A stretch of 52,952 nucleotides of DNA. Origin: Spirogloea muscicola. Lineage: Eukaryota; Streptophyta; Zygnematophyceae; Spirogloeales; Spirogloeaceae. Where the stretch lies: contig WELB01000187.1 in NCBI GenBank assembly GCA_009602725.1, forward strand, positions 135,407-188,358. Direction: 5' to 3'. Numbering within the stretch: position 1 is the stretch's first letter; each line of letters opens with the position of its first letter. This document shows, piece by piece, positions 1-46,480 of this stretch. The notes beneath the pieces are model-generated. The model worked only from the letters and a program-made list of their open reading frames with translations, was not told the DNA's origin and searched no databases. The translations under genes and the position numbers were made by a program.

Positions 1-252
1 CGTCGAGTTTCGGCCTGTTTGCAGCGAGCTCAGGCTAATGCCTTGCATCAGAAAGCTGGGCGAGCTCTAGTTGGTGACAGAAGGGCTTCTTACCTGACAG
101 CTAGTATTCATGCATCGGTTAGCGACCTTTATGTTTTGACCCGTGGATTTTGAGCGGGTCAACCTGCTGTAGGTTATGTAGATATTTAGATGTGCTTGCT
201 TGCCTTTGTACTTGGCCATTGGCCTATGTTTGTTTCAAAGACACGAAATTTT
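1..252 (+). mobile_element. LINE-B 3' end (5'-truncated, cut by window edge)
   Basis: The plus strand reads in frame as the end of a LINE ORF: a basic helix (RRVSACLQRAQ), ALHQKAGRAL, then SDLYVLTRGF and a TGA at about 150-153. A tail of roughly 100 bases follows, containing the palindrome GGCCATTGGCC and ending near GACACGAAATTTTC. A tail-only relative of this family lies at 46024-46138. The C-terminal pattern is like the end of ORF2 in non-LTR retrotransposons; the assignment rests on recurrence and pattern, not on a visible RT domain. A terminal scrap of a LINE-C tail (GTGGGCGAGC) follows directly. Confidence 0.6.
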
Positions 253-318
253 CTTCTCTGTGGGCGAGCACTTTCTTTCTTGGCCCGGCTTGCGCGACGC
301 GCTCTGTCCCGCTGGCGA

Positions 319-745
319 AATGCGTGTGTATTAAGAGATGGGGAGGCCATGTGTGGCCAAGTACCAAGGCAAGCACATTGACCACTGTACGTTACCTGCT
401 GCTAAGCTGACCACGAGGCAGCACATAGAGGTCGCTAACTGATGCTCGAACACCGGACGGCAATCGACAAGCTCTCGTACTACCAGCCAAGGCTCGACCA
501 GCTTTCTGATGCAACGCATGAGCCTGAGCTCGCTGCAGACAAGCTGACACTCTACGTCGCAAATTTGACAGATAGGCTGCCGGCATACCCAGCTGGGCTG
601 GAACATAGCGAATCTGGGCATATCCCAGACTCGCTATGTTCTCAAGTAGGGTATGGAAACGAGGACCCAAGCAGCCGAAAGTGTTGATTGCGGCCGGGAG
701 GAGGTGGTCGCTGCGGGGGTAGTCAGAGTAGTGTCGGAGCTTTCT
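319..745 (-). mobile_element. LINE-A 3' end inserted into LINE-C, with 7-bp TSD
   Basis: On the minus strand this encodes a piece resembling GPRFHTLLENIASLGY, then LRRRVSACLQRAQ, ALHQKAGRALA and SDLYVLPRG, followed by the LINE-A tail, whose 3' end is AATACACACGCATT at about 319-332. A homologous copy lies at 31768-32380 in the same orientation. The insert is bounded by CTGGCGA at 312-318 and again at 746-752. The flanking LINE-C reading (LARLARRALSRW before, RGEQ after) resumes across it. The usual LTRGY stop is replaced by LPRG, so this copy is degenerate. Confidence 0.65.
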
Positions 746-1030
746 CTGGCGAGGTGAGCAAGGCTGGCTTCACCGCCGCTGGCTTGCTAGCTCAGGTCTG
801 CCGTATGCGCCTCTCTATCTCCCTCCAGCGGTCCATGGCCCACGCCATGCACCTGCGTGCCGGCCGTGCTCTAGCCGCAGCCTCTGGCTTTCGTCAGGGG
901 GATTGCTTTCCGGCTGCTAATCTTTCGGATTTGCGGCTCCTCACTCGTGGTTACTAAGTGATCCATCCTACCCAAGCTCTGAGACAGCGCTGGGAAAGGC
1001 CAGCCCAGAAAGAATGAACAAAGAGCCTAA
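746..1030 (+). mobile_element. LINE-C 3' end (second half of interrupted copy)
   Basis: The first half is a short stretch at 276-318 (LARLARRALSRW). After the LINE-A insert the plus strand continues with VCRMRLSISLQRS, AMHLRAGRALAAASGFRQGD and LSDLRLLTRGY, with a TAA at 955-957. A 1-base deletion after the junction puts the two halves out of frame. The tail begins after the stop and includes a GGCCAGCCC stem near 1000. It is one of at least five LINE-C coding ends in the window. Confidence 0.6.
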
Positions 1031-1372
1031 CGGCACCAAAACCACACAGCTATGTAAGCAATTATATATCAAATGAAGAAGCGGTCAAATTGCAAGCGTC
1101 ACGACTGACCTTGGAAGTTAGGTGTGCTGTGTGCTTCATGGACACTCTCATTGGACTATCTTAGGCCGATATTTCGGAGGCACTTGCTTGCTGCTTCACA
1201 GTTGCGAAGTTCTGGGTTATGGTAGTGCAGTAGGCTTTGGACCATGACCACCAGCAATGTGCTGACAGTGACCAAGACGAGCGAAGTCTGCAGCGGGCTT
1301 CTCTAAATTTGTCAGAGAGAAGAAGAAGGGAACACAAATGCAAAGGCATATCAGAGTGATCCTCCACACATA

Positions 1373-3018: not shown

Positions 3019-3260
3019 CGGTCCGCTTCAGGCGACCGCGCTGGCGGAGCGGGGAGTGGAGTTGCTGCTGGCCGCGCCGTCACGCCGCGAGGCTGCCCGG
3101 CCAGAAGCCTCTCGGTGCGGCGCAGCGCCGGCGCATGCCGGCGACCTGGCGGCGCCGCGCACGACGGCGGCGGCGGGAGGCGGCGAGGGGGCTTGCGCTC
3201 GGCGGGGGACTGGCGGTGTGCTGCTGGGCTATATGCGACGAGGAAACAAGAAACAGCTCT

Positions 3261-3275
3261 TCAAATATATAAGGC
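3261..3275 (-). promoter_or_regulatory. TATA-like element upstream of VPS25
   Basis: On the minus strand this reads CCTTATATATTTG, a good TATA-type motif about 245 bases before the VPS25 ATG, followed by GC-rich leader DNA. It lies between the LINE-D 3' end (3300) and the gene. Function is inferred from position only. Confidence 0.35.
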
Positions 3276-3299
3276 AGTGGCAAGAAGTGGCACTCTCAA

Positions 3300-3540
3300 A
3301 GAGAGAAGGCGCGCGGGGCGCATGAATTGAAAGGGAGGCCAATTCAAGCCAATACATTGTTCAGGCAGAGTCGAGTGCAGACTAAACAATGCTACATAAT
3401 ACGGAGACCTAATCTAAGGTACCTAAGATGACATTAGTACCCACGGGTGAGCACAAACAAATCTGACAAGCTAACTTGGGGAGCTGGAGCGCCGCCACGA
3501 AAGCCGGAGGCCTGACTTAGAGCGCGCGCCTCAAAGAGAA
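3300..3540 (-). mobile_element. LINE-D 3' end
   Basis: The minus strand reads ARALSQASGFRGGAPAPQ, then LSDLFVLTRGY and a stop near 3434, followed by a tail of about 130 bases ending GCGCGCCTTCTCTCT at 3300. The tail block 3300-3447 matches 12384-12531 on the opposite strand with one substitution in 148 bases. The 5' end abuts the 3' tail of a LINE-A copy. Confidence 0.6.
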
Positions 3541-3808
3541 GATGCGTGTATATTAAGAGATGGGGAGGCCATGTGTGGCCAAGTACAAAGGCAAGCACAT
3601 TGGACAAATATACGTCACCTGCTGCTAAGCTGACCCGCTCAGTAACCACGAGTCAGCACATAGAGGTCGCTAGCTGACGCTCGAATACCGGACGGCAATT
3701 GACTAGCTCTTGTGCCAGCAGCTAAGGCTCGACCAGCTTTCTGATGCAGAGCATACGTCTGAGCTCGTTGCAGACAGGTTGACACTCGACGTCGCAGAAA
3801 TGACAGAT
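3541..3808 (-). mobile_element. LINE-A 3' end
   Basis: On the minus strand it encodes LSFLRRRVSTCLQRAQ, ALHQKAGRALAAGTRASQLP and SDLYVLTRGY with a stop near 3639, then the LINE-A tail ending ATACACGCAT at about 3541. The coding part is nearly identical to the copy at 31874-32050. It is truncated at its 5' side next to LINE-C-type tails at 3808-3965. Confidence 0.65.
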
Positions 3809-4320
3809 AAAAGGGGGGAAAGGGCTGTGAAAAGCCAGCCCGAAAAGAATTGACAAGGCTGTGAGAGGCCAGCCAAAGGAGTGTACAAGGTCTGAAAATG
3901 AATGCGGCTGCTGATATATAGAAGAGCGGCTGTAGAAGGCCAGCCAGATGAAAGGGCCGCATGGCGTAAAAAGCAGGATCTGTACAAGTGAGCAGCGGAG
4001 CTCGACTTGGCTCACTTGCGCGCAGGCCGAGCTTTGGCGGCGGCCTCCGGCTTCCGTCAGGGCGACGTCTTTCCGCCGGCTAGCTACTCACACTTGAATC
4101 TCCTGACTAGAGGTTACTGAGCGTCCCCTGGCTGATGTCTTAGTCCTCGTCCTTCGCACTCCGGCTCCTTCAGACCTTGTCCACTCCTCTGGGCTGGCCT
4201 TTCCCAGCCACCAGTCAATCTGGCCGCGCTTTCATTGCTCACGTTGTCAGACCTTGTCCATTCCTTTGGGCTGGCCTCTCCCAGCCACCAGTTCATCTGG
4301 CCGCGCTTGCTCTCTACCCC
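3808..4320. repeat. LINE-C-type tails and a LINE-C-like coding end
   Basis: At 3808-3965 the minus strand carries three tail units with GGGCTGGC or GGCTGGCC stems (ggctggctttt, ggctggcctctcacagcc and similar). At 4018-4120 the plus strand reads RAGRALAAASGFRQGD, then LNLLTRGY and a TGA at 4118-4120. Two more plus-strand tails follow at 4180-4320, each with a GGGCTGGCCT...CCAGCC stem and a short TTGTCCA lead-in. The rest of the gap up to the CUE/SMR stop (4780) shows nothing I recognise. Confidence 0.5.
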
Positions 4321-11459: not shown

Positions 11460-12383
11460 GAAATCAAGGGAATCTTAGGAGCCAGGCTACTTCCAGCACG
11501 AAGTAGCCTGACTCCTAAGCCAGGCTACTTTTTCTCTGAGCATATTGTCTGCCTGGCTGACATGCAATTTTGGCAGATAGAGGGTTGTACTGATAACTCT
11601 GAACATGCTGTACCAGTGACCCTCTAATTTGATTTGTACTGTATTCCCTCTCATAGCTTACTCTCCTCCCAAACACTGACAATACCTCATTCTTTGCAGC
11701 CCTGGCTTGCGGAGCAAGCTCAGCACCTCAAGCCTTGGCCTCTGCATTCTTTCATGGAGCCGTGTGAGCAGCAGCCTGCTCGTGGCCCTGCTTCTCCTAT
11801 CTCTTCTGCCTCTCAACACAGAATAATGAGTACACAACAGTTCCCCAGGGTGCTTAACGGCAGACCTTCCACTGACATGGCGGGGTGGCTCGAAGTAGCA
11901 AGGTCCAGCGATGGGGATAAGGGCTCTTGCAGCAGTCAACCACTGATCAAAACTGGCTTAAGTCAATGTTCCTGCCAATAGCTGTATGTTCCTGGGAGCC
12001 ACTTGCTAGTTCAATGCTACTGGACCTTTTGGAGCTCGTCAATATTTCTGGGCTGGCTTTTCACAGCCCTTGGAAGAGCCCCACTCTCTTTCTACAGCCC
12101 TCGCTCTCACACCCATTGCTGTCCATTTCGGGCGAGCTTAATCCTTCGAATTTGCTCCATCCACTTGCTCCTTTCCGGCGCTTCCTGACCTTGTCGAACT
12201 TCCACAGCCGTCGTTAGAAAGAGCTCGCCAATAGAAAAAGGGGGCCAGCAAAGCCAGCCCAGAAAGAAGGGACAATATCGAAATGCCGTCGTTAGGAAGA
12301 GCCACTTTCTTGTTCATACCACTGGGCTGGCTTGTCCATTCGTTTTGGGCTGGCTTTGCCAGCCACTCTTCTCTATGGGCGAG
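11460..12383. other. Intergenic region; LINE-C-type tails at its right end
   Basis: Up to about 12030 there is only VTE1 3' flank, with an inverted pair around GTAGCCTG at 11480-11530. From 12035 the plus strand carries repeated tail units (GGGCTGGCTTTTCACAGCCC at about 12049; GGGCTGGCTTTGCCAGCC at about 12346), with one unit inverted at about 12240-12270. The last unit ends in CTATGGGCGAGC, the site of the LINE-D insertion that follows. Confidence 0.5.
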
Positions 12384-12531
12384 CCCGTGGGTACTAACGT
12401 CATCTTAGGTACCTTAGATTAGGTCTCCGTATTATGTAGCATTGTTTAGTCTGCACTCGACTCTGCCTGAACAATGTATTGGCTTGAATTGGCCTCCCTT
12501 TCAATTCATGCGCCCCGCGCGCCTTCTCTCT
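12384..12531 (+). mobile_element. LINE-D 3' tail flanked by a 14-bp TSD
   Basis: This tail matches 3300-3447 (inverted) with one substitution in 148 bases. It is flanked by CTCTATGGGCGAGC at 12371-12384 and again at 12530-12543, a 14-base direct repeat belonging to the LINE-C tail it split: the interrupted tail resumes at 12544 with ACTTTG. It lies in the sense direction about 270 bases before the kinase ATG. Confidence 0.7.
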
Positions 12532-12798
12532 CTATGGGCGAGCACTTTGTTGCTGGCCTCTCACAGCCTTTGCTTTTACAAAGAGAGAGCAATTTCTCTG
12601 CCCATAGAAGCTTTATTCAGTACACTCATTACTTGCCTTACCCCGTGCGCGCAGTCAGACTAGCTGAGCCGGGCCCCCGCCGCGGGAGCCGCCGCAGCTC
12701 GAGCCGCCTCATGCGGCAGCGGCGGCGGCCGCGAAGCTCCCTCGGCGCCGCCTCGCGCCTCCGCGGCGAGCGGGGACGTCCGCAGGCCGTCCGGCGGC

Positions 12799-15700
12799 AT
12801 GGAGAGGACGGACGCCGACCTCGCCAAGGCCGCGGCGGAGCAGCTGGGCCACCTGACGATGAGCTCGCCTCCGCAGGCGGGCCCGATCCAGACCCTGGTG
12901 CCTCAGACGCTGCCCTCCAGCTTCACCCCGACGTCGCTCTCGCTTCTTTCATCTTTCACAGGCTCTGAGCTAGGGCCTCCTCACAATCGTCTGTAATCAG
13001 CACTGCTACACTCGAAGCTACTCAGCTTGCTGTTCGCTGAAGGTAGTGCAGTCTTGAGGATGGCAGTGGCAAGCTTAATTGACCAGCATAGCACTATGCG
13101 CACTGTTGGTGCAAGTGTCAGTCCACCTGCAGACCTTTTTCATCGTGCTGTTGTCAGTTTAGTAGCATTCGCGGCACAAACTATGGCTGAACCGAGCACC
13201 TCGTCGAGGCCACCTGCTTTTGAGTGGCAGCCTGGTCCATCAGGGGGCCAGAAGGAGTTCACACCCGAAGACGGCCCTCGCCTCCACGAGGAGATTGCTC
13301 GACTTAGCAACCAGGTATTGCAACCCTCTAGAGGACTAGCAAGCTGCTACTTTGACAAAGTGGACCTCCTCCGAGCTCCTGAGCTTGCTTTCACGTGCGA
13401 ATTGCGAGTCCTTCACGGCTGGGTGCATTGCAGGGGTCATTGCTAGCACATAATAGCAGCATGAGCTTCATCATGATGCCTGTGCTACTCTTCTATGACA
13501 ATTTCACAGACATTGTAAGCATAGCTGCAGGTTATCAAACTAGTGGAGGAGAAAACGGCGCTTGAGCAACATGACAGGTGGTTGGCGAACATGCTGAAGA
13601 CTGTACGAGCTGAAGCTGCAGCTCACCATATAGATCCCAGGTCAGCGGAGGATTTTCGCCAGACATTGTCAGGAATCCTGGGCCAGTCTGCTCCCCTTAC
13701 TCCTCTCTCCAAGCGCTATTTTCTTAACAATCCAAGCATGATCTTGATGACAATTCGTGCATGAAGAACCACATCACTCAGACTTACGATGTGTACCAAC
13801 AAGGTGCTGTGATTGTGATTGGTCATGCACCAATCTTTGGTATGGCTTTGCCATCTCAGTCAACTCCACATCCATACAAATCTTAGGGCTGCTCTCCTCA
13901 CGCAAGTTTCTCTGAGTCTATCAGAGCATTGGGCGTCAACTTGGAGCGGTCCTTCAGCATCCATTCAAACGCGGCAACTGCAGTGAAGGTCGACTATAAC
14001 CTCTTATTGAAGCCAAGTGCTTGACAAGGTATTGATTGGCACTACAGAGATCCTCGTTGTGGATTGACTCCTGCCTGTGTTGGGAGGCCAATGTCAATAA
14101 CTTCACTGGAATTGGGTCTTGGCAGACTGCTTTGCAGACTGAAAAATCACAGGCAGCTATAACAGGGCAGGCTCAACTGGAAAAAGTCCGCGAGCTTGGC
14201 AAGCTGCAGGGTTGGGTCATTGAGCCAACAGAGGTGAACAACCTGCACTGGTGTGTGTCCCTGCAGTGTGAAACAAGACTTCGTGATGCTCTCTCACTTG
14301 CTGTCCACCTTGCCAGGTGAAGAGTGCAAGCAACTGACACCAGCAAACTGATCCCCAAGACAGGTACAGCTCTTCGAGTTGGTGGGCTCAGGGTCCACAG
14401 CAGAAATCTACCGCGGAGACTGGCATGGTATGGATGTAGCTGTGAAGATACTGAAGCCGGAGCACTTCGACTCTGATCCTGTAAGTCACAGCCGACATTG
14501 TAGTGGCTTCGTAAGGAGTTCGTTCTGTTGGTGCATACCTGCATCCTGTGTTCCCCCTAGAATTGTATAAGTTTCACCTTTCAGTGTAGAAGTGTCATTG
14601 ACCCTACTATTTGCTTGTACCTGATGATGTGCAGGCAGCCTTGGGCAGCTTCTGCTTGGAGGTTGAGCTGCTTTCAAAGCAGCGTCACCCTTGGGTCTTG
14701 CGCTTGCTCGGAGCTGTCCTGAATCCACCACAGCAATGCTGGCTTGTAACAGAGCTTGTCAGAACTGGCACACTGGCAGAGTGGTTGCATGGCAGCAAGC
14801 AAAGGGAGTGGAAGCGGAAAGCGCCGCTGCCGCCTCTCGACGCACGCATGCGGATCGCGTTGGAAGTCTCTCAAGCCCTTCAGGTGGTGGTTTGTTTAAT
14901 GTCTTTTGTCTAATTTGTCTAAAATCTGATTGTTCGTTTGCATGATGCACTTGGTCAGTCTTGCTGCAACTCATGTAGGGCAGACTGTCTTCTTATCCTT
15001 CGTCATGTATGTCTGTAAACAGTACTTGCACGAGGAGCGACCAGTTGTCATACACCGTGACCTCAAGCCTAGCAACGTTTTCCTTGATGAAGCCAAGCAT
15101 ATTCGCCTAGCAGATTTCGGATTTGCACGATATTACACGCCTGCCGACAGCATCATGACAGGAGAGACAGGTATGCATGATGAGTATATCATTTACTACT
15201 GCAATGTAAGGTGCTTTTTACTGCTCTCTCCTGAAACATGTAGCTTGGTCATTCTGGGAAATAGAGGAGAGGAGAGGAGAGCTGTCAAGGTGCTTTTCTG
15301 ATGTTCTGACAGTAGATCATGCAGGAACGTATATGTATATGGCACCAGAAGTTGTGAAGCATGAGTCATACACAGAGAAGTGCGATGTTTATAGGTGAAT
15401 GCATCCTTCTAGGTCAATGACTACATGGATCTGCTATTGTCTGGTATTCAAATAGCAATTTCATTGACGTATTGGCCCTCCACTCCTTTCTTCGTCAAGA
15501 AGGAGATCAACCATGCTGCTCAATTCAAGCAGAAAATCAGATCTTCAATGTGCCAGTTTTGCAACGACATCATAAGCATCTCTGAGCTGTGCCTTGGCAG
15601 TTTTGGGGTATTGCTGTGCGAATTGCTCACAGGAGACCCACCCTACATCGACACGTACTTGTCTCCTGTTCAGGTACATACAGCTTCTATGTGTACTGTA

Positions 15701-15996
15701 CATGTACGCAAAACCCACGGCAACGGCTAGAGTGTGACTCACTGCTCCCGTTCGTCCACGACATCTTGCAGATTGCTGTTGCTGTGGCGGATGGGAAATT
15801 GAGGCCAAAGCTTCCTTCTAGTCATGACCACCATATCCCACATGCATTGGTCGAGCTTCTACCGCTTGCCTGGCACCAGGATGCTTCCCAACGACCACCC
15901 TTTTCTAAGATCACTCAGACCATAAAGGCTGCTATGCAGTCATCAGCAGGCACCACCGGTCATCAAGGATTCTTCCATCAGTTGCTCAGCTCCTGA
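12799..15996 (+). CDS. TKL-type protein kinase with N-terminal helical region
   Basis: Serine/threonine (TKL-like) kinase. The catalytic exons are 14364-14480, 14635-14883, 15023-15170, 15325-15394, 15601-15673 and 15772-15996. They show a Gly-rich loop (GSGSTAEIYRG), VAVK lysine, the alpha-C glutamate (FCLEVELL), HRDLKPSN, DFG (LADFGFARYY), APE (MYMAPEVV) and CDVYSFGVLLCELLTGDPPY, so it should be active. Upstream exons (12799 onward, about 13180-13312, 13532-13640, about 14120-14233) encode a charged helical region (EEKTALEQHDRWLANMLK; AQLEKVRELGKLQGW) that joins in phase to VQLFELVG. The ATG at 12799 (MERTDADLAKAAAEQLG) is the likely start; exon joins in the N-terminal third are uncertain. 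Substrate and pathway unknown. Stop TGA 15994-15996. Confidence 0.85.
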
Positions 15997-17216
15997 ATCA
16001 CATGTCTGTGGCTTGTGGCCGTGCAGTGTATGCTACATAGCATCTCCTTGGCAGCCAACTTCATGCACTCCTGCATGTGATTGAGCTTAGTCAGAAGAGT
16101 GCAGAATAAGGCAAGAGAAAATGCACGGCTTCAGCTCTGTATTACTCTACATTCTACTTTGCTTTGTAGCTTGCTATCAGTGATGCAGTTTACAACTGCG
16201 ATCGTCCTCATCCTCACTGCAGAACGCAGTTGATATTAGTGAGTGTTGTGTACATTCTGCTAGCAGAGCAGGGAAGGCTGGGCAGGGTTCCTGTCAAGGG
16301 GCAGTTAGAAATGCTAATGTTGCCTTGTGAAATCTCAACCATGTGCTCAGAGGTCACTTGGAACGATCAACTTCATCTGATCAAGACCTGGCTATTTATT
16401 GCTCGTGAGCTTTGATGCTTGCTTCACTGTTCGTGTCAAGAGGATGCTGCTAGTAAGGTCTCAAGCTACCTGGACATTGGAGTGCAATGCAGGTCACAGT
16501 TGTCATGGCACACTGAAAAGTAGGCCTGTAGTGGAGGTGGAGAAGGCCACTGCACAACTGCAACATAGACTGCTGCTTTTGATGACCGAAAAGCATGATA
16601 TGCTCAGAGGAAGGTGCAGGCAACAGGTGCAAATTGTTGAATTTTATCTGTTAGAAGAAGAGCTGCCACTGCTTAAGCTTGGGCTCTCCAACGGAATTTC
16701 TAAGAGTCTGTGGCTCCGCTAATATACTTATGGACACCATCTGTATTCACCTGGCTAATGTGATACTCAGCAGCTACATTTTCTCTTAAAGGTCAGCTGC
16801 AATGGTCCGATCAATAGCAGAGCTGCCAATGCTGCGAGGAGGCAGCTAAGGACATACGAATGTTCTGCAGGCCTAAGTTTCATGTTGCGAATGCGGCATT
16901 TGCTAAATGTGCAGCGCACACTTAGCACCCAAGCTTCGGCCAATCATCAGCGTGCTGGGCGTGCACTGAGCCAGGCCACTGTCGTCCCTGGCGGTGCTCC
17001 GGCTCCCCAACTTAGCCAAGTGGCTTCGTATGTGCTCAGTCGTAGGAAGAAGTGGCACTCCAAATGGGGGCAAGGGCTGTGATAAGCCAGCCGGAGGAGC
17101 CGGAGGGGCCGACGTAGGAGCTGGAGTCCAGCCTTTAGCCGGCATTTGCATAGCCACTTGGACAGTCACCTCAGCCCCACTAAGACGTCGCTTCGTATAG
17201 CTCGTATCACCATCTA
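15997..17216. other. Intergenic; LINE-D-like relic and LINE-C tail near right end
   Basis: From 15997 to about 16900 I see only kinase 3' flank. At about 16920-17030 the plus strand reads HQRAGRALSQATVVPGGAPAPQ, then SYVLSR, a diverged LINE-D coding end that has lost its stop context. At 17045-17095 a minus-strand LINE-C tail follows (GAAGTGGCACTCC...GGGGGCAAGGGCTG...CAGCC). Confidence 0.5.
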
Positions 17217-29995: not shown

Positions 29996-31369
29996 GCTGC
30001 TCACTTTACCATCGGGCACTACGTAACAGGAAGCTTTGCAATTTAAAATCGGCAGTGAAAGCGCTGTTCTTCTAGCCTGCGGCATTGAGACACCACTATT
30101 TCGCCCACCTGTCTATTATTCATTTCTGCATAGGTAGCAGCAGTTGGGCTTGCTACCCGCATTTCCATCCCTGGGCAGCCATACATTCCCTTCGCAGCTA
30201 TAACTTACTCAAAGCAGCGCAAGAATCCCGGAGCAGGTCAAATAAGTAGGAGAGAAGGTGGTCCACTTCACCCTGCCCTTATGAGAAGGCTGGCTATAGC
30301 AAGTCGCCCCCCATGGCACCAGGCCACCACATATTGGGCTACATGGGCGGTGGCGGGCAATCTGGCGAATGTGACCTCTAATTCCGTCCATTCTCAAGGC
30401 AAGTATGCTCTGGCACTCACTTTGGCGACGCTAAAGTGTAAGCAGTCATGCACACAGGGGCATCCGTGTAAGTACGAAGACAAACCTGCAGCACACTAGT
30501 TTGACGACCTACAGTCGAGGCGCATGCTTGTAGCTCGCGGCGCTGCTCCCAGGCAGCAGGCGCTGAGCGATGAGCAGGCAAGCTTCCACGTTGTTCGCGC
30601 AATCTACTTGTAAGTTTACTTCACAATAGCAGCGCCTTGGTAGCCTTTGTCTTGCACTTGCAGGCAAGTCGCACACAAGCTGCTTCAGCAGCCTTCCGCT
30701 TTGGCGTGAAAACTTGTCGCCCTGCACCAGTCCGCTTGTCCTGAGGCTGCCGAAGAGTAGATAGTAGTGATTAGTAGCACAGATAGTAGCAGATAAGAGC
30801 AGCAGCAGATAGTAGCAGCAGCAGATAGAAAAGCAGCAGATAGTATTCTTGTGTAGTCGTATTTTGTAGTCATTGAAGTTGCTACTTCTTTGCTGCACCT
30901 AGCCTTCTCTGCTGGCGCCAGCCTGCCTCAACAATTTCACACGTTTATCTTGGGCTGGCCACTTGCAATGACTGCCCTTCCTCGTGCTACTCTCATGCAG
31001 CTGCAGTGCCACACTAAATTGCGGCTTTGATGTGGGTGGAGCTTGGTTGGAACCTCACAGAAGGTTGACACCACGGCCGTGTAGACCGGCCATAATGACA
31101 GCATTAGAATCAGAAGGTCCGGATCAACGTCGGACAGTTAAAACTCATTTGCCTCGTGGGCTGCTGCTTGGGCTGATTATCTCTCGACTCTGTCCGGTCG
31201 TCTAGGCTGGCTTCTCTCAGCCAATGCCTTGGCCAGAACAGCCTCCTGATTTTGTAATGTCAAGCAGCACAAGGCATGGAAGGTGCCACCCTTCTATTGA
31301 TAGTTGACTGACCGCCTAGTGATAATGTAGCGGGCACACCCTGTACGAAGAAGTAAGCTTTCTTAAAGG
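29996..31369. repeat. Start of repeat island; AGATAGTAGC microsatellite
   Basis: No gene recognised. At about 30755-30845 the plus strand is a degenerate tandem of AGATAGTAGC/AGCAGCAG units; on minus it reads as a spurious Leu/Ile-rich ORF. Single tail stems occur near 30950 (GGGCTGGCCACTTGC) and 31205 (GGCTGGCTTCTCTCAGCC). Confidence 0.5.
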
Positions 31370-31767
31370 GGGCGATGACTGTGAAAAGCCAGCCCGAAAG
31401 GGAATGACAAGGTCTGAAAGGGCCAAAAAGCGCTGAAACACATATTTAAGCAAGTATCACGTAGGATAGTCACTTAGTGGCCTTTGATAAGCAGCCGCAA
31501 GTCAGAAAGACTAACGGCCGGAAAGCAGTCCCCTTGACGAAAGCCAGAGGCTGCAGCTAGAGCACGGCCGGCACGCAGGTGCAAGGCGTTGGCTATGGAC
31601 CAGTGGAGATATATAGACAGGCGCATGCAATAGACCTGCGCTAGCGAGCCAGCGGCGTTGACGTTGGCCTGCTCGCCCCGCTTGCAAGACAGAGCGGCGT
31701 GCAAGCCGAGTCAAGAGGTGTAACGAATGCTGTGGATCGCCAAGCCCGGGCTGCCGGCGGCGCAAGG
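31370..31767 (-). mobile_element. LINE-C 3' end
   Basis: The minus strand reads KRGEQANVNAAGSLAQVY, MRLSIYLHWSIANALHLRAG, RALAAASGFRQGD and LSDLRLLIKGH, with a TAA at 31476-31474. The tail with a GGGCTGGCTTTTCACAGTC stem runs down to about 31370. Upstream sequence (LTRLARRSVLQAGRAGQ in another frame) shows at least one frameshift. Its 5' end abuts the 3' end of the LINE-A copy at 31768. Confidence 0.6.
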
Positions 31768-32380
31768 AAAAGGAAAATGCGTGTATATTAAGAGATGGGG
31801 AGGCCATGTGTGGCCAAGTACAAAGGCAAGCACATTGGACAAATGTACGTCACCTGCTGCTAAGCTGACCCGCTCAGTAACCACGAGTCAGCACATAGAG
31901 GTCGCTAGCTGACGCTCGAATACCGGACGGCAATTGACTAGCTCTTGTGCCAGCAGCTAAGGCTCGACCAGCTTTCTGATGCAGAGCATACGCCTGAGCT
32001 CGTTGCAGACAGGTTGACACTCGACGTCGCAGAAATGACAGATAGGCTGCCGGCATACCCATCTGGGCTGGGAGCATATCCTCGCGTCGTGCATATCCCA
32101 GACTCGCTATGTTCTCGAGTAGGGTATGGAAGCGAGGACCCAAGCAGCCGAAAGTGTCGATTGCGGCCGGGAGGAGGTGGTCACTGCGGGGGTAGTCTGA
32201 GTAGTGTCGGAGCATTTTCTGCTCAGCACCTCCCACTGCGTGGCCAGCAATGTTTGTGGAAGCGGAACTCTTGTATGCCTCAGTCACCACCACATCAACC
32301 AAAGCTCGTGGGCCTCCGCCAGGTTGTACACCCACAATGTCCAGGGTGCGACGGTGATGGCCTGGGAAAGCGGGAGGCAT
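31768..32380 (-). mobile_element. LINE-A, longest copy in the window
   Basis: This copy keeps 168 open codons on minus. They begin near DIVGVQPGGGPRALVDVVV, continue through AEQKMLRHYSDYP, PAAIDTFGCLGPRFHTLLE, GMPAAYLSFLRRRVST, CLQRAQAYALHQKAG and SDLYVLTRGY-stop (stop about 31876-31874), then the tail with TATATTAAGAG on plus. The DVVVTE...EQK..HYSD...PAAIDTFG pattern resembles the nuclease-like C-terminal region seen in some LINE ORF2 proteins; that is pattern recognition only. No RT motif is present. Confidence 0.6.
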
Positions 32381-32489
32381 TGGGATGGGGCCGCAACGGT
32401 AAAATTGACAAACGGTTACTGCAGGGGCAAGGGTCCAGGGGTCCGAGGTTGGGTGAAGAACTCACCCCCTCTCCCATCTCGGGTGCCCC

Positions 32490-32751
32490 CCGTGCGCTGC
32501 ACCTTCGTGCCGGGAGAGCCCTCGCTGCTGCCTCTGGCTCTGTCCAGGGGACCCACTTCCAGGACCCTAGCCTCTCTGATTTGCGGCTGCTTAGCAGGGG
32601 TTACTGAGTAATTTGTAGCTGCTTTCTTTCTTTGTGTGCTTTGGTTTCTTAGCGCTTCCTCTGGCTTCCTCTGGCCCCCTTCTCGTTCTTTGTTCATTCT
32701 TTTTTGGGCTGGCTTGTCCAGCCCCTATCCTCAATGGGCGAGCCCTTTCTT
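32490..32751 (+). mobile_element. LINE-C 3' end, 155 bases identical to 38757-38911
   Basis: The plus strand reads ALHLRAGRALAAASGS, then LSDLRLLSRGY and TGA (about 32605-32607). The tail has a GGGCTGGC..GTCCAGCCCC stem and ends GGGCGAGCCCTTTCTT at 32751. Bases 32597-32751 match the minus strand of 38757-38911 without a difference, fixing the 3' end of the element. Confidence 0.65.
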
Positions 32752-33650
32752 TTATAGCCCGACGGACTGCGAGCCCGGCCATACGGGCCCGGGTGGGATG
32801 TTCGGCACCCAGTCTCTCGTTGATGACCCGTCCACGACCTGTCGACGGCTATCAACGGCTACCACCGACAATCTACCCGTCACTCGCAGCTGACGGTCAC
32901 TACCCCCCAGGCTATCGTCAGCCGTCTATCATCCCCGTCAATACTAACGGCTAACAATGCCGTCAAGGCAGTCTACAGCGCTGCCACCTCCCGTTGCCGT
33001 TCAGCGCCAGCACCATGCTGTCTCGCGTGTCACGACTCCGGGTTGCGCCGCTCTCAGCTCTATATCAAAGCCACGCTGCCCAGCCTGGTGAAATTGTCCG
33101 TCTCCAGGCATCTGTCAAGCCTTTCCTGCGGCACTGACAGTCAATTTATTTATCAGCCGGATGAGGTATCTAATCTCCAGGCATCTGTCAATACATTACA
33201 GCTGCATTGACATTCCAGCCATGTAAATTCGTTACAAGAGGTCTAGCCACTGAGTCCCGAAAGCCCTGTGCACATCAGATGGCCAGTAAAACGAACTCGT
33301 CCCCTTGTGGGTGGTCCACGTACTTGGCCTTTTTGCCACGAGCGGCGTTTGCCGCTGCATGCCTAGCATTCGAAGCAGAGATCCCCCGATTGGAGCGGTC
33401 AACCATATACGCTTCAAATGAAGCCTCCAAAATTGTCGGCTTACACTCTCTGAAACCGGAGGACCAGGACGGCAGGGCGCCTGTGGGTAATAGTGAGTGG
33501 CTAAGATGCGGACTATAGCGGCATCCGTCTAATTGGAGCTAATAAGCGGATGGGCATGGCGGTCGCGTCTGGCTGCAGCCTGTGGCTATAGAAAAAAAAA
33601 AGCAAGCGCGGCTATAGACAGGGGGGACCTGCTACCAGGAGACTTGTTCC
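32752..33650. repeat. Unassigned spacer with a degenerate LINE relic on minus
   Basis: From 32752 to about 33200 I see only short repeats of CGGCTATCAACGGCTACC type. At about 33230-33410 the minus strand reads DRSNRGISASNARHAAANAA, KKAKYVDHP and DEFVLLAI-stop, homologous to the LINE fragment at 35540-35700 but with a stop and a frameshift. An A-tract lies at 33591-33601. Confidence 0.45.
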
Positions 33651-34470
33651 TCGAACGCCTTTCGGCTTCGGACTTTGGACCTTGTCCATTCTCTTCCGGC
33701 TGGCCTTTCCTACTGTTTCTGTTACTTAGCGCTTCCCCTGGCCCCCTTCTCGTACTCTGTTCATTCTTTTTCGGGCTGGTTATTCCAGCCCCTATTCTCA
33801 ATGGGCGAGCACTTTCTTCTTTCCTAGCCAGCTTCTTTTTGGGCTGGCTTTTCACAGCCCTTGCCCCCATTGGGAGAACCACTTCTCTACTCCTCTAAAC
33901 TGCGGCTGCTCACTAGGGGATTTTGAGCACCCTGTGGCCACTTGAGTTGCCGTGTGCTCTAGCGCTTTCTGGCCCCTTCGAACTTTGTTCAGTCTTCTTC
34001 TGTCGGTTAGAGCATTGGGGGCCTTGATCATTCTTTCTGGGCTGGCTATTCCTTTCCGAGCTGCAAATCACTCCCGACTTGCGGCTGCTAACTCGGGGTA
34101 CTAAGCTTCATTTCTATAGTCTCCTGCATAGCTGTGTGATTTTGGCGCATTTAGGCCCTTCGGACCTTGTTCATTCTTTCTGGGCTGGCTTTTCACAGCC
34201 CGCATGCGGCTCTCCGCATGCGGCTCTCCGTGTCCCGCTGTCCCGCTGTCCGCTGTCCGCTGTCCGCTGTCCCGGCCCCTGCTTTCTGTGGGCGAGCAAT
34301 TTCTTTCGCCCCCGCCCTTTTTGTCCATTCCTTTGGGCTGGCCTCTCACAGCCACCAGTCAATTTGGACGGGCTTTCTCTTTTTGGATGAGCTCGCTTCT
34401 TTCCATTGGAGGCCCGATGGCTGTAAGAGGCCAGCCCGATAAAAAGAATTAACAAATTTCTCTTTTTCTG
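33651..34470 (+). repeat. Cluster of LINE-C-type tails and short tandem repeats
   Basis: At least six plus-strand tail units lie here (stems at about 33697, 33775, 33850, 34040, 34180 and 34337), mostly GGGCTGG...CAGCC preceded by TTGTTCATTCTTT or TTGTCCATTC and followed by (T)GGGCGAGC or CCCATTGGGAG. At 34201-34275 a small tandem of GCATGCGGCTCTCC (two copies) then GCTGTCC (five copies) interrupts one unit. Confidence 0.55.
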
Positions 34471-34596: not shown

Positions 34597-34674
34597 AGGG
34601 GAATGCGTGTGTATTAAGAGACGGGGAGGCCATGTGTGGCCAAGTACAAAGGCAAGCACATTGACCAATGTAGT
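34597..34674 (-). mobile_element. LINE-A tail only (about 78 bases)
   Basis: A tail fragment from AATGCGTGTGTATTAAGAG to TTGACCAATGTA, the same module as at 319 and 37370, with no coding part. Its right side passes directly into the tandem duplication at 34678. Confidence 0.6.
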
Positions 34675-34677
34675 AGA

Positions 34678-35310
34678 AGAAGTGGCACTCCCAATGGGGG
34701 CAAGGGCTGCGAAAAGCCAGCCCAAATAGAAAATGACAAAGGTTTGGAGGGGCCTACAAGCGATTAGCAGCTACAAAGAAGAAGTGGCACTCCCAATGGG
34801 GGCAAGGGCTGCAAAAAGCCAGCCCAAAAAAGAATTGACAAAGGTTCGAAGGGGCCGAAAAATCATTGAGCAGCTACAAAGGGGTCTGAAGATGCTATGG
34901 TAGAGCAGGGGGGGGATGGATCACTCAGTAGTTACGAGTGAGGAGCCTCAGATCCGACAGACTAGCTGCCGGAAAACTATCCCCAAACTACCCCCAGAAG
35001 TGGCACTCCCAATGGGGGCAAGGGCTGCGAAAAGCCAGCCCAAAAAGAATTGACAAAGGTTTGGAGGGGCCTACAAGAGATTAGCAGCTACAAAGAAGAA
35101 GTGGCACTCCCAATGGGGGCAAGGGCTGCAAAAAGCCAGCCCAAAAAAGAATTGACAAAGGTTCGAAGAAGCCGAAAAAGCATTGAGCAGCTACAAAGGG
35201 CCGGAAGATGCTATGTCAGAGCAGGTGGGAGGATGAATCACTCAGTAGGTACGAGTGAGTAGCCTCAGATCCGACAGACTAGCTGCCGGGGAACTATCCC
35301 CCTGACGAAA
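34678..35310 (-). repeat. 318-bp tandem duplication of a LINE-C 3' region
   Basis: Two head-to-tail copies with a period of about 318 bases: AGTGGCACTCC occurs at 34681 and 34999, and the internal second unit at 34783 and 35100. Each copy (minus) holds the coding end (LSDLRLLTR.Y-stop), about 65 bases, then two tail units, each with CTTTGTCAATTCTTTTTGGG lead-in, GGGCTGGCTTTT.GCAGCCC stem and GGGAGTGCCACTTCTTC end. The LINE-C 3' UTR is thus itself dimeric. Confidence 0.65.
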
Positions 35311-35700
35311 GCAAGAGGCCGCAGCGAGAGCACGGCCAGCACGCAGATGCAGAGCGTGGGCCATGGACCGCTGGAGGGATACTGACAACCTCATACGATA
35401 TACCTGAGCCCACGAGCCAGCTACAGCCCCTATCCTCCATGGGCGAGCCCTTCTTCATTGAAGTCAGCCCGCTCGCCGCGCCTACGGGACACAGCGCGCC
35501 GCGCAAGCCTGGCCAGCAGGTCGAGCCACTGGGACCCAAGAGCCCCGTGCACGTTAATAGCCAGGGGGACGAATTCATCTGTAGCTGGGTGATCGGCGTA
35601 TTTGGCCGCCTTGCTGCGAGCGGCCTTCGCCGCAGCGTGGCCAGCCCGGGAGGCTGAGAGCCCCGGGTTGGAGCGGTCGACCACTTCAGTGAAGTAGAGG
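35286..35700 (-). mobile_element. LINE-C coding fragment split by a tail scrap
   Basis: Minus strand, reading right to left: SNPGLSASRAGHAAAKAA, SKAAKYADHP, DEFVPLAINVHGALGSQWLD and LLARLARRAVSRRRGE (35700-35470), then about 34 bases of LINE-C tail (GAAGGGCTCGCCCAT...), then MRLSVSLQRSMAHALHLRAG and LSDLRLLTRTY (35420-35286). The E/K..KY......FVPLA....G..G block is typical of the C-terminal part of LINE ORF2 and is the best evidence for the LINE assignment. Confidence 0.65.
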
Positions 35701-36171: not shown

Positions 36172-36179
36172 GGAAAAGG

Positions 36180-36780: not shown

Positions 36781-37119
36781 AGACCCCTGTACACAGGCAA
36801 TTAAGGTCGACTCCTGAATGGGTTCGGACGGCGGGGTTTAGGAGCAAACCCCTACACCGTGAAGCACTCGCGCATCTGCGCATCGGAAGTCTGCCCTGTG
36901 GCGCCGCCGTCAGGCGGCGTCTCCACCTCCCGGGCACCAGCCCGCAGCTAGCCCCAGTAAAGGCCGGCAACGGACGCCTCGCAGCGAGTCGGCAGCTCCT
37001 GCCGGCGACGGGCTGCTACAGCAGGCAGCAGCAGCAGGGATGCGCCTCTCTCTGGGCTTCACTGATCCGAAATGTCTCCGGTCTCTGCCCCTAGACTCCC
37101 TACTACTGCTCCTCCGTGC

Positions 37120-37590
37120 CGCCCCCCCTCCGTGGGGCCAGCACGGGCCCGCCCTGGGGCCCGCCCCGAGGCCCACCTCGAGAGACGCCCCGCTCCAGGG
37201 GCCCGCACGAGGCCGCCCTGGGGCCCGCCCCGAGGCCCACCTCAAGGGGCGGGCCCGCACGAGGCCCACGCCGAGGGGCAGACCTGTCGGGTGGAAGGCC
37301 CACCCCGAAGGACGGGCCGCACGAGGCCCACGCCGAGGGGCGGACTGGTCGGAAGGCCCACCTCCAGGGAGAAATGCGTGTGTAATAAGAAATGGAGGGC
37401 CATATGTGGCCAAGTACAAAAGGCAAGCACATTGACAAATGTACGTCACCTCCAGGGGCCGACCGATCGGAAGGCCCACGCCGAGGGGCCGACCTGTCGG
37501 AAGGCCCACGCCGAGGGGCCGACCGATCGGAAGGCCCCACGCCGAGGGGCCGCCCGGTACGGCGGCGCCAGAGTAGACACCGAGCCAAGT
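37120..37590 (+). repeat. GC-rich tandem repeat (GGCCCACGCCGAGGGG units)
   Basis: Degenerate tandem units of about 26-30 bases, roughly GAAGGCCCACGCCGAGGGG followed by CCGACC.GTCG, open in several frames on both strands for that reason only. A LINE-A tail splits the array at 37370-37446. Confidence 0.65.
37370..37446 (-). mobile_element. LINE-A tail only, 77 bases, with 11-bp flanking repeat
   Basis: The insert runs from AGAAATGCGTGTGTAATAAG to ACAAATGTACGT. CACCTCCAGGG flanks it at 37359-37369 and 37447-37457, inside the GC tandem. In longer copies GTACGT is followed by CACCTGCTGC, so part of the right-hand repeat could be element sequence. Confidence 0.6.
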
Positions 37591-37964
37591 AAACACCGAG
37601 CCACCGAGGGCCCACCATGCGGGACCACCTGGCCAGGCCAGGTCGATCACGTGCCAGTTAGGTTAGCGTAACCACCGGGTTAACGCTCACAGTAAGTGGG
37701 AACGTTACACCCGTATTCCAGACATGCACACAAAGCCCGACTGAAAGCATGTTAGTCTCTGTCAACCCAGTACTGCAGGGCGACTTGTTCGTGCTGCTAG
37801 TTACGTGGATCAGACATACTTATTGCAGGGCTTGAGCACTGCCACAGAAATTGGTGACCTGGCTTATGGCGCTTAAGGGCGCTTCAATTCACCACGCTTG
37901 TAAGACAACAGAATTGGGCGAGGGCTGTGGACAGGCAGGCCACAAGTGGAAGAAAGGAAGGAGG

Positions 37965-38215
37965 CGCGCGGTGCGCATGCAATGAACGGGAGGCTAAAGC
38001 AAGCCATTACACTGTTTAAGGAGAGAATAAGCAAATAATCAGACGGGCTAAGGTTACAGAACGAAACTATTTTGGACGGGGGCTCTAGTACCAACGAGTG
38101 AGGACATCCTTAATGACAGACTAGTCTGGGGAGCCGAAGCAGCCACCACGCAAGCCAGTGGCCAGTTGCAGTGCATGCCTAGCACGCTGATGTGTGGCTA
38201 GAGCCTGAGAATGCT
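37965..38215 (-). mobile_element. LINE-D 3' end, old copy
   Basis: A minus-strand coding relic (ALQLATGLRGG, then CLTRWY-like LTRWY and TAG near 38090) is followed by a tail similar to 3300-3447 but clearly diverged, ending ATGCGCACCGCGCGCCTCC near 37965. It shows that LINE-D was active earlier as well as recently. Confidence 0.5.
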
Positions 38216-38469: not shown

Positions 38470-38911
38470 TGGGCGACCTTCCAGCCCTTTCAGACCCTCT
38501 TCATCTCTTCGGGCTGGCCTCTCACAGCCACTGCCTTACATCGTATGAGCTGTTTCTACTTCCACATGAATGTAGGCTCAGTCGGCGTGGGTGCCCCCGA
38601 TTGGAAAGAAGAAACGGTTCGTCCAGTGTAAGGCAGTGGCTGTGAGTGGCCAGCCCTAAGAGAGTTGTTTCAACGTAAGGCAGTGGCTGTGAGAGGGCAG
38701 CCAAAAGAAACAGCTCTCCCAATGTGAGGCAATGGCTATCAGAGGCCCGCCCAAAGAAGAAAGGGCTCGCCCATTGAGGATAGGGGCTGGACAAGCCAGC
38801 CCAAAAAAGAATGAACAAAGAACGAGAAGGGGGCCAGAGGAAGCCAGAGGAAGCGCTAAGAAACCAAAGCACACAAAGAAAGAAAGCAGCTACAAATTAC
38901 TCAGTAACCCC
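38470..38911. mobile_element. Tail cluster and LINE-C tail identical to 32597-32751
   Basis: One plus-strand tail lies at 38500-38550 (GGGCTGGCCTCTCACAGCCA). Three minus-strand units run end to end at 38630-38760, each with GGCAGTGGCTGTGAG...CAGCC. The minus-strand LINE-C tail at 38757-38911 follows, identical over 155 bases to the plus-strand copy 6 kb to the left. Its 5' end is cut just before the stop codon. Confidence 0.6.
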
Positions 38912-43513: not shown

Positions 43514-45636
43514 CTACATGTACATGAACTCGGCCTCCTGGAGGGCATTCTCCACACCCCGGCGCTCTGCTCGGTCCTCGCGCTCGCGCTCCTTCTGCCG
43601 CTCATAGGCATGGTCGTCTGTTCGCATCTCGAATCGGCACACTGGGCACGAATTATGTGCACTCTGCGCAGGCATTGCCAACAAGTAGTGGGCAGGCGAG
43701 ACCATCAGCAACGCCCTTCTTGACTGGCAGCTGCGACACGCTGCAACCATCAGCGCAATGGGGCACGGGCAAACAGGGAGGACAGATGGGGGAAGGGCGG
43801 TGGAGCTCACGAGCCACGGTCCGAGGCAATCGGGATGGAAGGCGTGGCGGCACGGCATCTCCTGCAGCACGCCGCCGGTCTCGAAGGCCTCCTTGCACAC
43901 AGAGCACTCGGCGCCCTCACCGAGGCGCGCCAGCAGCTCCGTAGTCACAGCCATGCACGGCAGCTTTGCCACCTCGTCCTTGGCCGCCGGAGGCGGGCCG
44001 TGTGGCATGCTCCCAGCGTCCTGGCACCATGCAGAGGCGGCGGCTCGGAGCCAGATCAGGCCTATCTGTGGGCTACTCGTTGGCTGTCAAGTAACGTCAG
44101 CCGCTCACAGCACCAAACTGCGAGCAACACGCAGCATCCACATGGCCGTGTGACAATGTCAACGGCCACCAAATGCAGCCCAGGTGGGGCAGGTGGCACT
44201 CACCTGGAGAGTGGCCTGGATGGCTTCGTCAAGGCCGGCGAAGTGGCCGCCCCCGAGGAGCTCGGCGAGCTCAGTACCGGCAGCACGCAGCAGCTCGTTC
44301 AACTCAACCGTGCTACCGCCGCTGAAGGCCTCGACTACGGCGCGTGCACGCCGCTGCTGCTCCTCCTCCTCGACGAGCCCGCGAGCGGCATCGCCCGTCC
44401 GGCCTTGATGCTCGTCCAGGCGGTGGACTGCCTGCTCGCTGCCACGGCCTGCGCCGCCATCCTGGTCCTGCCGCCGCCTGCCCTCCTGGCCTTCATTGGC
44501 ACTAGGCTCCTGACGATTCAGCGCATCCTCGTTCTCCAGCAGTGGCGCCAGCATGGCAGTCAGTGCTGCCTGCGCCTCCATCAGGCGTGGCTGCGGCGCC
44601 GGCGGCTCATGCAGCGAAAGCTGACCCTCAAACAGCGATGACACTGGGCGACCTCCTCCTGCAGCAGACCGCAGGCAGCACTGATCAGCGCGAGCGCACA
44701 TCTTGGCGACGAGAGGACGGCAACGAGCTGCCGCCACCATTCGCCAACCGACGGCGGCACGGCGGCGATGACCATGAAGCACTGCCTCTCCAACTGCGAC
44801 GACTGCTCACCCCTGGCGTCCCGAGCACCCAGCCATGCGCCATCGCCGGGGGCTGTGGCGGCGGCGGCGTCGTGGGCGTCCTCTGCCGATACCCCATCCT
44901 CCAAGACCCGCCGCGCCTGCTCGACCCACGCTGCGGCCTGCCGGCGACGGTCCGGCTGCGGCGCGACGGCTGCGGCGGCGGCGTCGAACAGCCGCAGGCC
45001 CGCCGCCCAGAAGCCGCGGCCGGTGTGCCGCGTCTGGAGCAGCGTCGCCGCGCGCTTCACCGCCGCCCACATCTGTGGTATGGACAAAAGTATCATATCA
45101 TTAACGAATTCATAGTATCATCATCAGCAGCAGCATCACCTTCATATATATCATCAGATACAAACAGATTCTTGTGTATCCCTCACGGGATTTGAACCCG
45201 TGTTTGCGCTATGGAAAGCGACGTCCTAACTCCTAGACCGCGGAGCCGCTGCCTGCCCATCAGCGCCACGAGCGCAACGAGCAAGCTGCGGCGACCGCCA
45301 GCCTTCAGTCCAATTCCAGAGGCCGCTGGCCCAAGTCAAGGCTTAGAAGCATCTCAGCGAGGCTGCTTAAATGCTTCTGGGGTCCCAATTAGGAAATCCC
45401 TAAAACCCTGATCCTCTGATTCTATATTTTCCTAAGTGTTGGCTCAAGACCTCGTCCTGCTCGGCTGGCGGTGCGGTGGCGTAGCGGCGCTCCACGGCGG
45501 CCGCCAGCGCCGCCGCCGCGCCCTCGAACGACGCCTTGCGGTCGAGTTGCCTCCGCAGCGCGGCCAGGTCGTCGCCGCCACCGCCGCCGCCGCCGCGGCG
45601 AGAGCATGCGGCGGCGCCGCCGCCGTCGTCCAGCAT
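43514..45636 (-). CDS. AIP2-like RING-H2 E3 ubiquitin ligase
   Basis: Ubiquitin ligase resembling Arabidopsis AIP2, which marks the ABI3 transcription factor for degradation; the algal substrate is unknown. Exon 1 (45636-45451) encodes DDLAALRRQLDRKASFEGAA; exon 2 from 45072 continues AVKRAATLLQTRHTGRGFWAAGLRLFDAA, in phase, as in AIP2. Further exons give SSLFEGQLSLHEPPAPQP, an acidic/Gln-rich linker, then ATLQ/DAGSMPHGPPPAAKDEV and the RING: CSVC, then MPCRHAFHPDCLGPWL, NSCPVCRFEMRTDD (C-x2-C, H-x2-H type, complete), ending VENALQEAEFMYM-stop, like the AIP2 end. The exon 2/3 join is not settled. Intron 1 (45450-45073) contains a tRNA-like sequence. ATG 45636 gives a Gly-rich N-terminus. Confidence 0.87.
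45181..45250 (-). tRNA. tRNA-like sequence (Gly-UCC-like), probably degenerate or SINE head
   Basis: On the minus strand a T-arm is clear (ACGGG TTCAAAT CCCGT, B-box GGTTCAAATCC), and a D-arm fits GTCT..AGGAGTTA..GGAC (A-box-like). The anticodon arm CGCT-TTCCAT-AGCG has a 6-base loop, one short, with TCC in the anticodon place. The acceptor strands do not pair properly. It is therefore more likely a pseudo-tRNA or the 5' part of a tRNA-derived SINE; a (GAT)n-like stretch follows it in that orientation (45110-45160). It lies inside intron 1 of the AIP2-like gene, same strand. Confidence 0.45.
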
Positions 45637-45929
45637 CCCGCCGGCCTCTTTCAGAGCCGCGGCGACGACGCCGACCGCGGACCCATCAGCCGCAAAACCC
45701 ACCGACCCAAGACAGGCCGGGAAGCGCCGCGCCTGGCGGCTGCGGCCGCGAGAGCCACAGCGCGCAGATCGCGGCGCAATTCGCTGCGGCGGCGGCGGCG
45801 GCGGCGGCGGCCGGGGCACGGAGTGGGGCCCGCCAACCGCTCTAGGAAGTAGCAAGCAAGCTTTGGAAGGGGGCAGGAATGTGGTTGCCGAACTCTATCA
45901 CATGTAATTTCATCGTCAGAAAATACATG

Positions 45930-46480
45930 TTCACAAGAGGCGGCTCTGGAGAGAAATGGCTCTCCCAAGAGCGGCTCTGAAGGCCAGCTAGGTGCATTCA
46001 GACGGTGTTCGCATGGCGGAATTTTCGTGTATTTGAAACAAACGAAGGCCAAATGGCCAAGCACATCTAAGACCTACATAACCTACAGCAGAATGACCCG
46101 CTCAGTAACCGCGGGTCAAAACATAAAGGTCGCTAATCGAGCCCTTTCTTCTAGTATGTTGTCGTGATTGGTAGAGTAGAGGAGTCCTTCCTCGGCATCT
46201 CATTCTTCGGCTTTGGACATTGTCCATTCTTTTTGGGCTGGCTTTGCCAGCCCCTCTTTCTCTATGGGCGAGCCTTCTTCTTTCTTCTAATTCGATGCCT
46301 GAAAACTAGATGTCAGATAAGAAGCCCTTCTGCCACCAACTAGAGCACGCCCAGCTTTCTGTGGGCGAGCCTTCTTCTGGTGCAAGGCATTAGCCTGGGA
46401 AAGATGTGTTCGCATGGCGGAAGACGCTTCCAGTAGATGGGCGATGGCTGTGATTGGCCAACCCAGAGGAAACGAGCATG
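45930..46480. mobile_element. LINE-B tail and LINE-C-type tails
   Basis: A tail stem lies at 45940-45990 (GGCTCTGAAGGCCAGC). At 46024-46138 a minus-strand LINE-B 3' end holds the stop region (ACCGCGGGTCAAAACATA) and the tail with GGCCAAATGGCC, ending at AATTTTCGTG. At 46215-46275 a plus-strand LINE-C tail has GGGCTGGCTTTGCCAGCCCC and TATGGGCGAGCC. Another GTGGGCGAGCC scrap is at 46360. Confidence 0.55.

Follow-up and report, generated by a model that had tools for sequence, protein, structure and literature searches.

A 52,952-nucleotide (nt) stretch of the Spirogloea muscicola genome (contig WELB01000187.1, positions 135,407 to 188,358), referred to as the window throughout, encodes many variants of a single open reading frame (ORF) end followed by several different 3′ tails, raising the question of what kind of element left them and how one ORF end came to stand before such different tails. 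The original prediction, made from the window alone, was that at least four families of long interspersed nuclear elements (LINEs) had radiated by exchanging tails while keeping the ORF end. The copies examined here point to another answer, namely that they very probably belong to at least seven related LINE families of the type encoding a restriction-like endonuclease (RLE), which insert by target-primed reverse transcription at pyrimidine runs and whose tails were carried along from one ancestor, with no exchange needed. A striking idea is thereby replaced by one that has been tested, as the tails descend with the ORF in the copies examined.

A scan of the window for the motif [LV]SDLxxLTRGY followed by a stop located 13 element-linked places (118, 404, 922, 3434, 3639, 4085, 25333, 31474, 31874, 32572, 34925, 35242 and 46102), in agreement with the predicted minimum of 13; the in-frame stop is absent at 404 and 25333. 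Weaker related ORF ends lie at 33891 and 34070, and a match at 10801 is unrelated to the elements. With up to one, two or three substitutions, the motif was found 9, 12 and 15 times, respectively (the unrelated match at 10801 being counted in the 12 and the 15, not in the 9), compared with means of 0, 0 and 0.15 in 20 dinucleotide shuffles. Tail ends with up to four substitutions were found five times for A, twice for B, six times for C and four times for D, against means of 0.7, 0.1, 0.0 and 0.0 in 10 shuffles. As predicted, the tails recur downstream of the stop, on both strands of the window, with fixed 3′ ends and scattered 5′ starts (32 different points in 39 usable D copies and 35 in 41 C copies, taking the window and fetched loci together). 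The number of families was an undercount, at least seven being found (A, B, C, C′, C″, D and E), and the four tail types do recur but are not all separate, those of A and B being homologous and aligning at 80% over 97 columns. Family matches cover 5,336 nt of the window, about 150 nt of which are GC-rich and may match by chance. A diverged A-like tail with its own end, termed A2, was also seen at two loci (L026, reverse strand near 6537, and L016, near 714) and is perhaps that of an eighth, older family.

Two of the ORF ends in the window were used as queries against the genome (153.1 Mb in 471 contigs), each yielding at least 150 scored matches. The same genome gave 68 matches to chlorophyll a/b-binding proteins, marking the host as a photosynthetic eukaryote and most probably a green alga. 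The counts below rest on the best-scoring matches and the loci examined are a small part of all copies, the rough first-look candidates numbering 15,031 to 21,146 with the ORF-end queries and 1,097 to 2,008 with the tail queries. The LINE ORFs were reached via their C-terminal peptides because a genome scan with the reverse transcriptase (RT) profile RVT_1, rejected as a route to them, ranked Ty3/gypsy-type copies first. The four top-ranked loci of that scan (L001 to L004) have equal RT scores and open frames of 1172-1237 aa, and the one that was read, L001, is Ty3/gypsy-like, which suggests recent activity of long terminal repeat (LTR) retrotransposons in the same genome. Long runs of N lie inside or beside copies at L027, L028, L029, L069-L072 and L077; they were met on extension to full-length C (L027, L028) and E (L077) elements and in the sequence bordering the window on its left (L029). 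As such runs interrupt the assembly at the copies, copy numbers may be underestimated.

Exchange by template switching or recombination, through which one ORF lineage would gain different 3′ tails and radiate into families, predicts that ORF class and tail class should part company. Loose linkage of 156 ORF ends from the loci and the window gave the tail of the same class in 113, no recognisable tail in 34 and another tail in nine. Under a strict rule requiring a clear ORF class and a tail contiguous with the stop, 38 ends of weak or ambiguous class, 29 without a contiguous tail and 37 duplicates were removed, and ORF class equalled tail class in all 52 that remained, up to seven of which had served as class references. 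Starting from the tail instead, 25 of 34 loci were concordant, nine, with no confident ORF remains, were uninformative, and none was discordant. By family, concordance was 5/7 for A; 7/7 for B, by identity, the longer A reference scoring higher in bits at three of the seven (L033, L035 and L036); 3/7 for C, one of the three being non-contiguous (L067, 41.6 bits); 5/6 for C′; and 5/7 for D, two of the five resting on 11-13 residues (L039 and L044). Weak matches (17-31 bits) at five loci, four of them C and one C′, were scored as uninformative; among these is L061, a C tail with a 20-bit C′ ORF match.

The degree of divergence follows the same pattern. Tail similarity across the seven families tracked that of the endonuclease region (Mantel test, Spearman rho 0.72, a value reached in 22 of 5040 label permutations); an earlier test on 45 residues was weak (288/5040). 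The ORF tree supports the groups (A,B) and (C,C′,C″), and tails can be aligned within these same groups. What speaks for exchange is that the tails of A, C and D can hardly be aligned, despite endonuclease regions that are 43-50% identical, and that within the C trio the tails are most alike between C′ and C″ (score 96), the pair whose ORFs are least similar (63%). The latter is the sole hint of discordance and, as the ORF tree leaves C, C′ and C″ as a single unsplit group, it presents no conflict. Tail exchange between families is therefore not supported in the copies examined, given the strict and tail-first agreement and the Mantel result, and is judged very unlikely; from the sequence comparisons, the tails appear to have been inherited with the ORF and to have evolved faster than it.

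The recurring tails could alternatively be mostly short interspersed nuclear elements (SINEs) or other non-autonomous parasites with borrowed LINE tails, as the nine tail-first loci lacking confident ORF remains just upstream would allow. Against this, the truncation points are scattered, as noted for the D copies, and no common non-LINE 5′ segment was noticed by inspection, made without clustering of the copies. A predominance of SINEs is accordingly thought highly improbable.

The nature of the LINEs themselves was read from a full-length family A element, part of the check that had been proposed with the original prediction. Two family A copies with different flanks have both ends in common, and their alignment spans 3,984 nt at 99.9%, defining an element of 3.98 kb whose single long open frame comprises 1267 codons. 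This frame length recurs in nine of the best 150 scored matches, so that family A looks young. A Pfam domain scan of its protein identified an RT (RVT_1, E = 1e-18), which by sequence has weak matches to group II, retron-type, R2 and L1 reverse transcriptases; the YADD motif is present in the A, C and D frames. The RT is followed by a CCHC knuckle and then by the endonuclease region. A candidate for the N-terminal zinc finger expected of RLE-group LINEs is zf-C2HC_2, placed at residues 244-267 of the protein with E = 0.0004 and 20.5 bits, under the 27-bit cut-off. The other families share the endonuclease region with family A, and a C.CG...H..RC knuckle, then R-x-D, then DV plus lysine, downstream of the RT, are common to A, C, C′, C″ and D; the family B row starts inside the knuckle, after its first two cysteines, and has the remaining motifs. 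Together with the 5′ truncation and the target-site duplications described below, the RT bears out the assignment of these copies to LINEs.

An AlphaFold2 model of the last 231 residues of the family A protein (25 rows; predicted local distance difference test score, pLDDT, 71; predicted template modelling score, pTM, 0.65) was used in structural searches. With Foldseek, R2 occupied the top three rows (E = 8.8e-7 to 2.2e-5), and with VIA the model reached Z 13.1 against 9nl2 (root-mean-square deviation 3.1 over 163) and Z 10.6 to 12.7 against six further R2 entries, the best non-R2 row reaching 7.8. The C-terminal region of family A is thus predicted to be an R2-like RLE with a PD-(D/E)xK-type fold. 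The block FVPLA...G..G at 35540-35700, originally taken for the end of an ORF2, is real, lies on the minus strand just upstream of an ORF ending and is in another frame than that ending because the copy is broken. This block and the basic helix fall inside the R2-like endonuclease region and are therefore not the end of an ORF2 of the type with an apurinic/apyrimidinic endonuclease (APE). That the elements are APE-type LINEs, L1- or Zepp-like, with the block as their ORF2 end and the nested clusters as Zepp-like centromeric arrays, is most improbable, for although Coccomyxa Zepp likewise nests in its own copies and is often 5′-truncated (PMC8226300 and PMC3446292), the domain scan of the family A protein listed none of the APE families at E values up to 1, the predicted fold is that of an R2-like RLE, no poly(A) was seen at tail ends and copies are spread over many contigs.

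Insertion junctions were collected from 197 element ends, 172 of which were usable and 165 distinct. Target-site duplications (TSDs) of at least 8 nt flanked 20 of the 165 distinct junctions in a strict count excluding element letters, compared with 1.5% of permuted pairs. Looser counts gave 21/107 versus 2.8% and 31/172 versus 1.9%, the control for the last having a window 4 nt shorter, a difference that the 21/107 and 20/165 counts avoid. A clear example is the family D copy at 12384-12529, flanked by TCTCTATGGGCGAGC at 12370-12384 and 12529-12543, a duplication of 13 nt without the letters shared with the element end. The first three TSD letters were all pyrimidines in 13 of the 20, against a background of 26%. 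Pyrimidines also occupied 81% of all 165 3′ flanks at +1 and 83% at +2, falling to about 50% by +7; at +1 to +5 they made up 90-95% for A, 69-100% for B and 92 falling to 72% for D. Insertions thus prefer pyrimidine runs, and TSDs above chance, fixed 3′ ends and pyrimidine flanks together fit target-primed reverse transcription, whose signature had been predicted, with a preference for such runs.

A mechanism that would account for these features starts from one long protein, seen in family A, combining RT, CCHC knuckle and RLE. The protein would nick the strand opposite a pyrimidine run, the 3′ end of the RNA would anneal to the nicked strand, and each family's own 3′ tail would be recognised, so that reverse transcription of the element's own RNA is primed from its 3′ end. 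Reverse transcription would usually stop early, leaving 5′-truncated copies, some with short TSDs. The families would have split from one ancestor with their tails carried along, the tails changing faster than the ORF.

Several observations weigh against this account. The full-length reading is that of family A alone. Compared by sequence, the RLE profile had no match among PDB chains at E up to 10 and only two single-member matches in Pfam (E = 0.14 and 0.22), and the RLE assignment consequently depends on a structural model whose confidence is middling; an initial AlphaFold2 model of greater length (978 residues, 7 rows) was poor (pLDDT 37). TSDs of at least 8 nt were present at just 12% of junctions in the strict count. 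For C and C′ the pyrimidine preference in the 3′ flank is weaker, starting from about 0.75 at +1 and coming near 0.5 by +4 to +5, and in A, B and D some of the 3′-flank pyrimidines may be part of the element's own end. The loose linkage count includes nine off-diagonal cases among the 122 ORF ends with a tail, four of which are nested insertions or interrupted tails and five of which have a weak ORF class (28-44 bits). Finally, the lowest-energy structure of each of eight tails tested (E as a shortened tail) contains a hairpin, and only those of C′ and C″ were clearly better than shuffles (z -2.7 and -4.8), the other six ranging from -0.3 to -1.7.

The copies and fragments in the window are as follows.

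1-252, plus strand: family B copy running off the edge of the window, with ORF end, stop at 153 and tail B
319-748, minus strand: family A copy, 87% identical, its tail A ending at 319
753-973, plus strand: family C ORF end, stop at 957
3302-3527, minus strand: 5′-truncated family D copy, inserted some 14 nt past the 3′ end of a family A copy, with TSD TCTCTTTGAG (looser count)
3542-3809, minus strand: 5′-truncated family A copy, 99% identical
4022-4120, plus strand: C-like ORF end (AGRALAAAS...LTRGY-stop), then a GGGCTGGC-type tail
12332-12384, plus strand: family C″ tail piece, the target of the adjoining D copy
12384-12529, plus strand: family D copy, truncated within the last ORF codons
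17046-17092, minus strand: family C tail fragment
24785-24866, minus strand: family A tail-only copy
25321-25485, minus strand: family A ORF-end fragment, 85%
31365-31719, minus strand: family C ORF end and tail pieces, an old copy (75-81%)
31776-32363, minus strand: family A copy with a 162-aa open frame and tail A, matching the long family A element over 588 nt with an identity that rounds to 100%
32489-32752, plus strand: family C′ copy, 97%
33235-33408, minus strand: family C endonuclease-region fragment, 71%
33731-33818, plus strand: family C′ tail-only copy
33837-33886, plus strand: family C tail fragment
34602-34672, minus strand: family A tail-only copy
34675-35095, minus strand: three tandem family C tails (34675-34778, 34777-34984 and 34996-35095)
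35094-35691, minus strand: family C copy in a broken frame, including the FVPLA...G..G block and an ORF end
about 35422-35456, opposite strand to the broken family C copy in which it lies: C′ tail-end fragment some 30 nt long, representing a very short nested insertion
37373-37451, minus strand: family A tail copy within a GC-rich tandem repeat, with TSD CCCTGGAGGT (looser count)
37957-37979, minus strand: family D tail end, an old copy
38757-38911, minus strand: family C′ copy, 100% identical to 32597-32751
46023-46361, minus strand: family B copy in two parts (46023-46140 and 46293-46361), interrupted by a C″ copy on the other strand
46176-46281, plus strand: family C″ copy within the family B copy

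The repeat interrupted by the A tail copy at 37373-37451 belongs to a GC-rich region (36900-37600) of tandem units of about 30 and 62-64 nt. Outside the elements, an intron-rich gene with protein-kinase motifs (HRDLKPSN) was read by eye at about 13180-15990 on the plus strand.

A pyrimidine run closes the tail in five of the seven families (C, CTTCTTCT; C′, CCTTTCTTT; C″, CCTTCT; D, CCTTCTCT; and E, CTTTCTTCT, the last from two loci), and the A tail closes with CATT and the B tail with AAATT, most copies having T and C next. Because the ends of most tails look like the sites that insertions prefer, every new copy may itself supply a further target. Insertion points lay near the tail end of another copy in 25 of 165 distinct junctions (27 of 172 usable), compared with 766 (4.0%) of 18,993 positions drawn at random from the same loci, so that nesting near tail ends was about four times the random expectation; the count misses insertions that cut off the tail end, such as that at 12384-12529. 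Within the window, nesting is exemplified by the D copy beyond an A end (3302-3527), the C″ copy splitting a B copy (46023-46361) and the tandem C tails (34675-35095), the product of nested insertion in C tail ends, perhaps with local duplication afterwards (a 162-nt repeat at a spacing of 317 nt). It is conceivable, if somewhat doubtful, that the 3′ tail is used twice, as the signal copied first and, through its pyrimidine-rich end, as a re-created landing site, with the families piling into one another's tails across the genome. Confidence in this double use is held down because family C contributes 10 of the 25 nesting cases, among which tandem C tails may include local duplications, and because the junction pyrimidines may be the element's own. 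Were it true, these elements would be a dispersed, RLE-driven counterpart of the self-targeted nesting of Zepp. Irrespective of this, abundant and partly young RLE-type LINEs are recorded in a photosynthetic eukaryote, with a common preference for pyrimidine runs resembling most of their own ends, and the existence of several families with natural tail variants makes tail recognition by RLE-type LINEs testable in vitro.

No description of these families was found in the literature searched, coverage of which was incomplete, and absence from print is not claimed. 'Stringent' LINE 3′ tails with stem-loops are described for UnaL2 and a plant L1 lineage (PMC3747384). In each family here the 3′ tail is likewise fixed and predicted to form a hairpin, but hairpins are statistically supported in two of the eight tails and tail recognition is presumed.

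Zepp has poly(A) ends. It belongs to the L1 clade, is clustered at centromeres and nests into existing copies, according to PMC8226300 and PMC3446292. Zepp and ZeppL share with the present elements a green-algal host (probable here), 5′-truncated copies and nesting in existing copies, and differ in that an RLE-like endonuclease, tails with no poly(A) seen and dispersed rather than centromeric copies are found here. Membership of the Zepp/L1 clade was rejected on the lack of an APE in family A, the only family tested, and the R2-like endonuclease region in its place. Dualen (RandI), present in Chlamydomonas, is likewise a green-algal LINE with an RLE, but carries an APE besides (PMC4640811), and was rejected because none was found in family A, the only family read at full length.

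The closest resemblance is to R2 and the other RLE-encoding LINEs, which besides Dualen comprise CRE, R2, R4, NeSL and HERO (PMC4640811). With these, the elements share a single long ORF, in which the RT is followed by a CCHC knuckle and an endonuclease region of predicted R2 fold, and the signature of target-primed reverse transcription. R2 proper uses a fixed site such as 28S rDNA, unlike the elements here, which show a pyrimidine-run preference only: copies sit in many unrelated contexts, no fixed 28S rDNA insertion was seen among them, and a search of the window against Rfam at the gathering threshold gave no match and therefore no rRNA there, so that an R2 element in the strict sense was ruled out. 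The elements are accordingly placed at the level of the RLE group.

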